Part shown: positions 3,935 through 5,843 of the stretch, piece after piece
Layout: every line of letters begins with the position of its first letter
How positions within the stretch are numbered: position 1 is the stretch's first letter
Assembly (NCBI RefSeq): GCF_946479605.1
Contig: NZ_CAMLGT010000120.1
Coordinates: forward strand, 1-11,029
Direction: 5' to 3'
Source: an uncultured Lacibacter sp.
Lineage (GTDB): Bacteria; Bacteroidota; Bacteroidia; Chitinophagales; Chitinophagaceae
DNA: 11,029 nt
Notes under the pieces: generated by a model
What the model saw: only the letters and a program-made list of their open reading frames with translations
Database searches by the model: none
What the model was told of the DNA's origin: nothing
Translations under genes and position numbers: made by a program

Positions 3935-4369
3935 ATGAAAATGATCAAACCTGTAATTGCCTTTCTTTTTGTTGCAGTTACCCTCACAGCTTGTACAAAA
4001 GGTTTTTATATTGATGGCAAGAAAGCAACTGCCGTAAAAATTACTGATATGGGTGAAATGTATTCTACCTATAATTTGTCGCAGGCAGAAAAAACAGAAG
4101 TGTCGAAACAATTGAATAACAAATCAATGATCGATGAAATTATACGTTACGCAAAAGAAGGAACATGGCCCGATGGTGTAAACACATTACAGGAAAGGTT
4201 AGACAGCCGAAAAACCATGGAGCGTTATAATTTTTATAAGGTAGCCAGTTTTGGAAATAAAACGATTGTAAGTGTACCTGCTGAAAAAAATCAACACATG
4301 CCGGCTGCATTTATACCGCAAGGACCAATGTATATGATCTTTGCCAGTTCAGTCGTATCGGGTAAATAA
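3935..4369 (+). CDS. Putative lipoprotein of unknown function
   Basis: This is a 144-residue protein with a lipoprotein signal: a positively charged start (MKMIKP), a hydrophobic core (residues 6-17) and the lipobox LTAC ending at Cys20. It should be exported, acylated on Cys20 and anchored in a membrane. The mature part is mostly hydrophilic and ends with a hydrophobic segment (about 127-141) containing FIPQGPMYMIFASSVV. I do not recognise a family. An alternative ATG two codons later changes little. Upstream there is only a poor promoter match (a TTTG at 3848-3851 with TACTTTC 18 bases on). A GCCTG/CAGGC hairpin (3898-3914) would lie in the leader. A strong terminator follows 19 bases after the stop, so the gene is probably transcribed alone. 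Confidence 0.85.
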   Translation: MKMIKPVIAFLFVAVTLTACTKGFYIDGKKATAVKITDMGEMYSTYNLSQAEKTEVSKQLNNKSMIDEIIRYAKEGTWPDGVNTLQERLDSRKTMERYNFYKVASFGNKTIVSVPAEKNQHMPAAFIPQGPMYMIFASSVVSGK

Positions 4370-4431: not shown

Positions 4432-4465
4432 AAAAAAATATCCCCGCCTGGAAAGGTGGGGATAT
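4432..4465 (-). terminator. Intrinsic terminator of candidate small RNA copy 1
   Basis: The eight-base arms ATATCCCC and GGGGATAT pair perfectly. Two more C-G pairs follow inside after a single A-C mismatch on the minus strand, and the loop is six bases. Six Ts follow on the minus strand. On the plus strand no T-run follows, so the orientation is minus. Confidence 0.75.
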
Positions 4466-4466
4466 G

Positions 4467-4504
4467 GCTAATCAGTTACCATTAACCATTAAACCTTATC
4501 ATCA
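4467..4504 (-). repeat. 38-base direct repeat, copy 1
   Basis: This is identical over 38 bases to 4631-4668, which lies 164 bases away in the same orientation. On the minus strand it begins TGATGATAAGG and ends AACTGATTAGC, with two TTAATGG units in the middle. Similarity continues more weakly on the 4505-4529 side, up to a shared run of eight identical bases. Confidence 0.95.
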
Positions 4505-4601
4505 CACAAATAGACTGAATATTTTTTTTATGAGTTGCATGGCATTGTCATAATTCGGCAAGCTGATGGCAAAACAGGGGCATTTCGATCTTTGCGGGCA
4601 C

Positions 4602-4630
4602 AAAAAAGCCTCTTCTGTAAAAGAAGAGGC
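4602..4630 (-). terminator. Intrinsic terminator of candidate small RNA copy 2
   Basis: A perfect nine-pair stem is formed by 4608-4616 and 4622-4630 (GCCTCTTCT with AGAAGAGGC) around a five-base loop. Six Ts follow on the minus strand. It could also end read-through from the thioredoxin-fold gene, whose stop is 83 bases upstream. Confidence 0.85.
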
Positions 4631-4668
4631 GCTAATCAGTTACCATTAACCATTAAACCTTATCATCA
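4631..4668 (-). repeat. 38-base direct repeat, copy 2
   Basis: This is a perfect match to 4467-4504 in the same orientation. The flank 4669-4692 aligns with 4505-4529 only with small gaps. The similarity stops at the terminator side, where the two stems differ completely. Confidence 0.95.
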
Positions 4669-4713
4669 ATGGCAAAATAGCTAATTTTTTTTAATTATTG
4701 TTGAAACGTTAAA

Positions 4714-5247
4714 TTATTTCCAGCTTGGCTTAAATTTTTTTGCATAGTCATCGAAGCTCACGTTGGGGTATTTTTTTTCAGCAAAGTACCGGGTAACCAG
4801 TTCCATTTCCTTTACCTCAAGCATCCCTGAAATAGGCTGCGGCTCATCACTTAAGGAAGGAATGATCACAGTTGTGGGGTAAGCTAACTCACCTGCCGTA
4901 AGTGTGATTGCTATTTCATTGGTTTTATAGGACGGGTTAAACTTATATACTTTGCCTTTCCAGATCACTTCATTTCTTGTTTCGGCATTCAGTTTTACGG
5001 TATAAAAATTTGCATTCAGGTACTTTATAAGATCCTGGCTTGTATAAGTTTTACGATCCATCACCTTGCACCAGCCACACCAGTCGGTATAAAGGTCAAC
5101 AAGTATGGGGCGGGGGTCGGTTTTCGCTTTTTGTTCAGCTTCTTCTAAACTTATCCAGTTCAGCTTTTCTTTTGGTTGCTTTTGCTGAAATGAACTGATG
5201 CTGATGAAGAGAAAGAAAAGGACGGAGTAAAAACAAAACTTTTGCAT
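4714..5247 (-). CDS. Secreted thioredoxin-fold protein with CGWC active site
   Basis: This 177-residue protein has an N-terminal signal sequence (hydrophobic residues about 4-19) and is probably periplasmic. The domain starts at about residue 30. DLYTDWCGWCKVMDRKTY places the redox motif CGWC at residues 57-60. The conserved cis-proline before the substrate site is in AYPTT (Pro124). This arrangement matches the Thioredoxin_7/DsbD C-terminal-like group, which reduces or isomerises disulfides outside the cytoplasm, rather than cytoplasmic thioredoxin. There is no lipobox. The ATG at 5247 is 38 bases from the divergent ubiX start. A minus-strand -7 element lies at 5267-5274. Downstream lie the duplicated repeat-terminator units. 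The partner protein is unknown. Confidence 0.9.
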   Translation of the reverse strand: MQKFCFYSVLFFLFISISSFQQKQPKEKLNWISLEEAEQKAKTDPRPILVDLYTDWCGWCKVMDRKTYTSQDLIKYLNANFYTVKLNAETRNEVIWKGKVYKFNPSYKTNEIAITLTAGELAYPTTVIIPSLSDEPQPISGMLEVKEMELVTRYFAEKKYPNVSFDDYAKKFKPSWK

Positions 5248-5285: not shown

Positions 5286-5843
5286 GTGCATAAAATTGTT
5301 ATTTCAGTTACAGGCGCCAGTGGTTCTATCTATGCAAAACTGCTGTTGCAAAAACTATTGCTTGCAAAAGAACAATGGACCGAGGTGGCTGTTGTAATGA
5401 CAGAGAATGCAAAAGAAGTGTGGCGGACTGAACTGGGAGATGACTCATATAATGAGCTTCCGTTCAACATATATTCCACTACCGATTTTACTGCAGCTTT
5501 TGCATCGGGCTCAGGAAAGTTTAACACCATGATTGTGGTGCCATGCAGCATGGGCACGCTTGGCCGTATTGCTGCGGGTGTATCAAACGATTTGATTACA
5601 CGTGCAGCCGATGTGGTGCTGAAAGAAAGAAGAAAACTCATCTGCGTTGTTCGTGAAACGCCTTACAATCTTATTCATATTCGTAATATGGAAACGGTAA
5701 CACTTGCAGGCGGCATCATTTGCCCGGCTACACCAAGTTTTTACAGTGTGCCGCAAACAATAGAAGATGTGGCAGCAACTGTTGTTGACCGTGTGCTTGA
5801 TCTTGCAGGAATTGATGTGAAAACGTTTCGCTGGGGCAAGTAG
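5286..5843 (+). CDS. ubiX: Flavin prenyltransferase UbiX
   Basis: This enzyme joins a dimethylallyl group to FMN and so makes the prenylated flavin cofactor of UbiD-type decarboxylases, which act on aromatic acids including quinone precursors. The 185 residues are the usual length. Visible are the N-terminal Rossmann-like strand IVISVTGASGSIYA with GASG at residues 10-13, and the signature PCSMGTLGRIAAGVSNDL from residue 86. Then come TRAADVVLKERRKL and VRETPYN (residues 122-128), and ICPATPSFY. The start is GTG at 5286: the frame has a stop at 5247 and no ATG before the conserved HKIVISV. The gene diverges from the thioredoxin-fold gene and converges on a minus-strand gene ending 19 bases after its stop. 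No ubiD is in the window. Confidence 0.95.
   Translation: MHKIVISVTGASGSIYAKLLLQKLLLAKEQWTEVAVVMTENAKEVWRTELGDDSYNELPFNIYSTTDFTAAFASGSGKFNTMIVVPCSMGTLGRIAAGVSNDLITRAADVVLKERRKLICVVRETPYNLIHIRNMETVTLAGGIICPATPSFYSVPQTIEDVAATVVDRVLDLAGIDVKTFRWGK

Follow-up and report, generated by a model that had tools for sequence, protein, structure and literature searches.

Tandem candidate genes for an antisense small RNA of a multicopy family in Chitinophagaceae

The small RNAs (sRNAs) of Bacteroidota met in our literature searches come mainly from Bacteroides, and two of them, FopS and GibS, are closest in build to the locus described here. FopS is a family of paralogous sRNAs in Bacteroides thetaiotaomicron that is found in Bacteroidaceae; its published description names SusC-like transporters as targets and reports an association with the RRM protein RbpB by CLIP (PMC11697453). 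GibS, from the same species, is about 145 nt long, comes from a single locus with a non-canonical promoter motif, and is described as having a conserved 5' part, positions 1-38, which is mostly single-stranded and pairs with target mRNAs around their start codons, and two further hairpins before the terminator (PMC7366714). OmrA/B and Qrr are named as multicopy sibling sRNAs in the FopS description (PMC11697453).

In this paper, we describe two tandem units in an 11,029-nt stretch of DNA from an uncultured Lacibacter sp. (contig NZ_CAMLGT010000120.1; this whole stretch is called the window), which are in our judgement likely to be genes for a trans-acting antisense sRNA of a multicopy family of Chitinophagaceae. 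Like FopS, which is known here by its description, the members of this family are predicted to carry a single-stranded 5' seed followed by a Rho-independent terminator, with exceptions in the folds of two members (L063 and L110), and they have many paralogues per genome, up to 19 model matches, with two or fewer in many genomes. Unlike FopS, a family of Bacteroidaceae, they occur in Chitinophagaceae, and the two are likened by build. A conserved, mainly unpaired 5' part with predicted complementarity around start codons is shared with GibS, whereas the present RNAs are predicted to be short and are multicopy, in contrast to the length, single locus and extra hairpins given for GibS. Homology to FopS/GibS and mere likeness in build are both possible. 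As in the multicopy siblings LhrC (Listeria), OmrA/B and Qrr, one pairing sequence is common to all siblings, and the sets of mRNAs would overlap. These siblings, however, come from other lineages, and OmrA/B and Qrr depend on Hfq, whereas no Hfq match was found in any of ten genomes of the present family (5 of 14 control genomes gave a match).

Within the limited collection of papers that was searched, the core sequence occurs in no paper's text, and none of the papers listed describes a Chitinophagaceae sRNA family; we class the present one as a new sRNA family of a known kind. As a sequence-defined family with candidate targets, it makes Hfq-free sRNA control testable in a large environmental (soil and water) family of bacteria, provides a case of sRNA copies multiplying with a fixed seed and a replaced terminator, and bears on whether a FopS-like build arose once or repeatedly.

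Layout of the two units in the window

A 38-nt block occurs twice on the minus strand of the window, at 4631-4668 (copy 1) and 4467-4504 (copy 2); the two blocks are 100% identical and spaced by 164 nt, which confirms the tandem repeat reported in the earlier note. A third match to the 19-base core of the block is absent from the window with three mismatches allowed, and the core had a mean of 0.01 matches in 200 shuffled windows. The order of elements that had been described for both units, i.e. an A8 run, a box, the block and a terminator with dissimilar stems, was likewise recovered from the sequence. The A8 runs lie at 4692-4685 (copy 1) and 4529-4522 (copy 2), and the box regions read CTATTTTG at 4680-4673 and CTATTTG at 4513-4507, respectively. 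The promoter-like box of copy 1, TATTTTG (4673-4679, minus strand), fits the box pattern of the family, TAnnTTTG-like, which is present in 48 of 84 collected copies (see below), and resembles the TAnnTTTG -7 element of Bacteroidota; the weaker box of copy 2, TATTTG (4507-4512, minus strand), was read from the sequence and falls outside that pattern. By sequence reading and folding, the intrinsic terminators occupy 4602-4630 (copy 1, stem GCCTCTTCT/AGAAGAGGC with a T run, 0 bases 3' of the block) and 4432-4465 (copy 2, ATATCCCC stem, arms ATATCCCCACCT/AGGCGGGGATAT with one mismatch and a T run, 1 base 3' of the block), both on the minus strand; the stems are GC-rich and unrelated to each other.

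From the positions of box, block and terminator together with the fold, we predict an RNA of about 69 nt for copy 1, the one nearer the thioredoxin gene (4602-4670, minus strand), and of about 75 nt for copy 2 (4432-4506, minus strand), with putative 5' ends; each unit would probably be read from its own promoter and end at its own terminator. The seed GATAAGGTTTAATGG, delimited by conservation in the family and by antisense sites at gene starts, lies at 4650-4664 in copy 1 and at 4486-4500 in copy 2. It is followed by a predicted weak hairpin 1 at 4631-4650 (copy 1, with the variable linker in its loop) and at 4466-4487 (copy 2, centroid fold), again on the minus strand, and the first 17-20 nt of both window copies are unpaired in the predicted fold.

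The neighbouring genes were assigned by ORF and profile match. Upstream of the pair lies a syntenic thioredoxin-fold gene (4714-5247, minus strand), beyond which a ubiX-family flavin prenyltransferase gene (5286-5843, plus strand) is also syntenic. The convergent neighbours downstream have a PF08941 match (3935-4369, plus strand; syntenic in Lacibacter-like genomes) and a CxxCxxCC match. In the near relative SCNH_8, a MAG (G004), a 2-kb piece has 94.6% identity to the window and both blocks are 100% identical. Elsewhere in the window, an intergenic AGCT-rich imperfect inverted repeat was observed at 2262-2370 (arms 2270-2296 and 2340-2366); its Rfam hit looks like chance, with a score far under the gathering threshold.

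Distribution and anatomy of the family

An exact scan of GTDB contigs with the 22-mer GATAAGGTTTAATGGTTAATGG from the block gave 15 matches in 12 stretches, ten of which are sRNA loci; these come from Lacibacter and from MAGs labelled as Chitinophagaceae or Sphingobacteriales. A sequence model of 45 positions (R1; cut-off E 1e-3 or better), which was built without one antisense site lacking a terminator (L016), repeat DNA (L019) and two matches in a near copy of the window (L018), matched 142 of 394 Chitinophagaceae genomes, and a broader model (R2) matched 114 of 294 genomes of a sample overlapping that of R1; both counts may be too low because the filters were strict and weak copies may be lost, and they include matches that were not each read individually, some of which may be antisense sites. 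The highest numbers of R2 matches per genome were 19 (G265), 15 (G299) and 14 (G171). In each of two other high-copy genomes one sRNA copy was seen near an RRM_1 gene, at about 3.4 kb (G294:C1:6362968-6366653) and about 4.4 kb (G347:C23:5066-9706).

A search at the level of the class gave matches in 10 of 395 genomes, about four of which look real, namely those in G294, G039, G552 (with a poor T run behind the copy) and a diverged one in G044, and no other group with many copies was found among these 395 genomes. The matches in G522, G559, G606, G609, G706 and G707 were set aside as simple repeats or isolated matches by appearance. The diverged copy of G044 (L202) has five mismatches to the 22-mer and keeps TTTTCATAGGATAAGG, TGATTAG and a terminator; it was missed by R1 and found by R2, and further diverged members may exist. 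In other Bacteroidota, runs of simple repeats of the GTTAATGGTTAATGG type (L019, L203, L205, L210) mimic the core and inflate weak model matches. The absence of a known RNA family, as claimed from the letters alone, held in Rfam (release 15), where the window and ten loci gave only matches below the gathering score. A viral origin was considered and rejected, since an exact 18-mer occurs in 14 IMG/VR stretches, and in none of these do the 90 bases viewed include the remainder of the block or a terminator.

For the anatomy of the RNA, 84 distinct copies were collected from loci L015-L118 and L199-L214 and from the window. A copy was counted if it carried no more than two mismatches to the 22-mer, had TGATTAG or TGATTAA downstream of it and left 75 bases of sequence; these limits removed the diverged L202, L083 (at a contig end) and the second G010 copy (L041). 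The best match to the 22-mer is exact in all 62 loci L057-L118. The linker behind the 22-mer has four bases in 80 of the 84 copies (5, 6, 6 and 11 in the other four) and is followed by TGATTA(G/A) and then, in 83 copies, by a hairpin with at least four T in its tail, for which 50 different 5' arms were counted. In the earlier note the units were put forward as a small-RNA family in which the block is constant and the terminators are exchanged, and a block absent before terminators elsewhere was named as speaking against it; the block precedes a terminator hairpin in 83 of the 84 copies, which, together with the matches in 142 of 394 genomes, supports the proposal.

Three subtypes can be told apart, i.e. 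A, with TGATGATAAGG and the linker TAAC, in Lacibacter-like genomes; B, often with TTTTCATAGGATAAGG, and the linker TATT; and C, with TTTTCATAGGATAAGG and the linker TTTT. TTTTCATAGGATAAGG, at the 5' end of the B and C types, is complementary to CCTTATCCTATGAAAA, which reads as an ATG preceded by its leader. Folding of six members placed a hairpin of GGTTAA type with ATTAG, the linker in its loop, in the best structure of five and in the centroid of three; the fold of L063 did not stand out from shuffles, and in L110, for which the folded stretch extends past the T run, the 5' seed part pairs with the T-run region and the bases after it. These predictions suggest an architecture of a largely unpaired seed, a weak hairpin and a terminator, in which hairpin 1 is without covariation support because its stem columns are invariant.

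Complementarity to translation start regions

The antisense matches of R1 fall at gene starts, and the antisense seed is an addition beyond the account of the earlier note. In G002, a stretch of 23 nt that precedes a radical-SAM gene (L036) is perfectly complementary to the genome's own sRNA copy (L043). The same region (L036 / L016:241-279) also holds a 27-nt complement of the A-type block, 16 nt before the radical-SAM ATG, and the genome's own copy is of the C type.

As duplex energies with loops were too noisy for a target screen, ungapped complementarity around gene starts was scored in 0.8 Mb each of the A-type genome G298 and the B-type genome G294; the gene starts used here, in the match-free comparison and for the orientation of neighbours are mechanical ORF starts rather than annotated genes. 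In G298, a score of at least 14 was reached between -30 and 0 by 12 of 675 genes, as compared with a mean of 0.3 and a maximum of 2 for 30 shuffled blocks, and 11 of these 12 have their end no more than 6 nt from the ATG. The other bins held 0-3 genes at this score (bins of 30-40 nt, with 3 in +30 to +60) and 4 and 5 genes (bins of 200 nt), the outer bins slightly exceeding their shuffle maxima. For half of the sites found at gene starts, AT-rich leaders could be part of the cause, and the shuffles also rise slightly there. An 11-mer profile of the same genome had its highest values in the 5' half of the block, at and around AAGGTTTAATGG, with up to 11 of 676 genes, while the last eight windows at the 3' end had 0-2 genes each, and none of 200 shuffles equalled the signal. 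The score profile of G294 was weaker than that of G298, with 24 genes at a score of 11 or more (shuffle mean 10.5, maximum 18); its 11-mer peak lies at TTTAATGGTTAAT, and 9 of 200 shuffles did as well as the true seed.

An antisense 13-mer had 42 matches in ten Lacibacter-like genomes versus one for the backward control. Eighteen of these are the sRNAs themselves; 24 lie elsewhere, and in 13 of them a start codon overlaps the site or is at most 15 nt away. The gene-start sites include those of DUF2807 and cytochrome c proteins, each in two genomes, and of an MKFNFKS lipoprotein in four. Family genomes without a listed match, of which the 13 of 20 genome pieces with at least 14 kb were used, had none of 185 genes at 12 or more versus 15 of 676 in G298 (one-sided Fisher P 0.026), and none of 185 versus 12 of 676 at 14 or more (P 0.054). 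Two exact antisense pattern screens of ten high-copy genomes gave no clear enrichment (6 versus 2 and 11 versus 8 in controls). Judged by these scores, complementarity to translation start regions is beyond chance in G298 and weak in G294 and the high-copy genomes. Duplexes predicted between the two RNAs of the window and three leaders of G004 range from -24 to -39 kcal/mol.

One conserved site, CATTAATCATTAAACCTTA, precedes the gene for a small secreted protein, which is the best candidate target; this protein has no Pfam or NCBIfam family at cut-off, and the label "PepSY-like" was dropped as unsupported for that reason. Its site takes the form CATTAATCATTAAACCT(TA), 11-14 nt before the ATG, in the A-type genomes G298, G169, G004, G005, G003 and G093, and recurs with changed flanks before the B-type orthologues of G360, G337, G278, G018 and G237, so that 17-20 nt are conserved before orthologues of 11 genomes and two subtypes. 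Among 31 start regions of this protein family (from 40 loci, nine repeated loci being left out), 14 score at least 11 (shuffle mean 0.3, although one shuffle reached 12 regions), and the mean score of 12.1 is above that of all 300 shuffles (maximum 8.6); the 17 regions below 11 include all those from G294, G061, G022, G045, G274 and G049, and a match to the protein was absent in 6 of 15 genomes. For DUF2807, 28 regions from 30 loci (43 matches listed; L327 and L339 left out) were scored. Three of them reach 11 (G005, G003 and G010), where one shuffle reached four, and the 28 regions average 8.2, a value that none of 300 shuffles reached (maximum 7.8). G004 has one more DUF2807 site (L049).

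Proposed function, genomic setting and other readings

The constant front part of the RNA most likely controls the protein output of genes with complementary start regions. In the proposed mechanism, this 5' part (GATAAGGTTTAATGG...) would pair with mRNAs over the start codon or immediately before it, most likely blocking the loading of ribosomes; repression is expected because of the position of the sites, and activation is possible. Genes for secreted and envelope proteins appear prominent among the sites, and the RNAs of the high-copy genomes may act in the same mode. Pairing would take place without Hfq, perhaps with an RRM protein, as the lack of an Hfq match combined with RRM_1 proteins in all ten genomes suggests an RRM partner, by analogy with RbpB for FopS.

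RRM proteins also figure in another reading, unlikely in our estimate, according to which the constant GG/UAAUGG-rich front part binds and sequesters an RNA-binding protein, e.g. an RRM protein, and pairs with mRNAs only secondarily or not at all. Such a decoy is favoured by a front part that is constant beyond the needs of one seed, by the RRM_1 proteins of the ten genomes, two of which, both high-copy, have 12 matches each and the remaining eight 2-6, and by the fact that long antisense sites are not enriched in high-copy genomes. It does not, however, predict the start-codon sites in G298, nor their conservation in the orthologues of two subtypes.

Still less probable is that the block forms no independent RNA. 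It would then be a conserved 3' end of neighbouring genes, a repeat linked to their terminators, or a mobile repeat of intergenic DNA. Window copy 1 starts about 50 nt after the thioredoxin stop codon, and the nearest called ORF upstream is on the same strand in 58 of the 84 copies, within 100 nt in 14. In the window, read-through from the thioredoxin gene is possible, and the 3' untranslated region of that gene had been put forward in the earlier note as a simpler account; this account is insufficient, since copies lie beside ubiX without a thioredoxin match in L043, L061, L110, L116 and L117, and 38 of the 84 copies are in loci (flanks mostly about 1.5 kb) with none of the neighbour genes of the window, the other 46 being in loci with at least one. 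Stems and flanks that vary between copies around 22 fixed bases are unlike a mobile repeat, and phage and plasmid records gave no match to the block.

That the MVNGN frame, MVNGN* in the window, serves as a leader peptide with an attenuator controlling the next gene is very improbable. In its favour, MVNG-X-stop or MVNDN-stop is kept ahead of the terminator in 80 of 84 copies. Against it, 62 copies have a convergent gene as the next one called downstream and just 15 have one on the same strand (nine of them within 150 nt; four copies have none in the locus and three are overlapped by a called ORF), so that a regulated same-strand gene directly downstream is mostly missing. In addition, four copies alter both linker length and peptide, and conservation extends past the stop into TTAG. 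As the linker lies in the loop of the predicted hairpin and differs in length in 4 of 84 copies, we do not read the frame as the cause of the conservation; its presence had been noted correctly, and neither its function nor that of the TTAATGG repeats as such was borne out.

We return to the antisense sRNA as the preferred reading and to its origin. Copies of all three subtypes A, B and C lie beside ubiX, often with the thioredoxin gene, so the ubiX locus is probably ancestral and the scattered copies derived. The recent duplication that had been suggested for the tandem pair does not agree with its distribution, as both copies are found in 8 of 10 genomes of one set and also in G093, G169, G298 and G264, the second sometimes diverged; by this distribution the pair is old. 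More tentatively, and with somewhat more doubt than confidence, we propose that an ancestral sRNA gene beside ubiX founded an Hfq-free regulon across the family, in which the seed would have stayed unchanged as the copy number rose above ten per genome and matching sites arose in mRNAs, the RNA being antisense to the start-codon region as such and RRM proteins replacing Hfq.

Stretches in the sense of the seed were also observed behind protein-coding genes. One, in L247 and L253 (G298 and G169), is conserved behind a gene, and the stretch viewed shows no obvious terminator. Another, GATGATAAGGTTTAATG with a hairpin, lies behind the stop codon of a different gene ending ...SLTMTSVKIG in L223, L225, L246 and L249 (G169, G005, G003 and G298), and may be a 3'-UTR-borne sibling with the same seed; its hairpin stems differ between loci, i.e. 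GAGTCGCA/TGCGACTC in L223 and L249 versus GGAGTTGCAG/CTGCAACTCC in L246.
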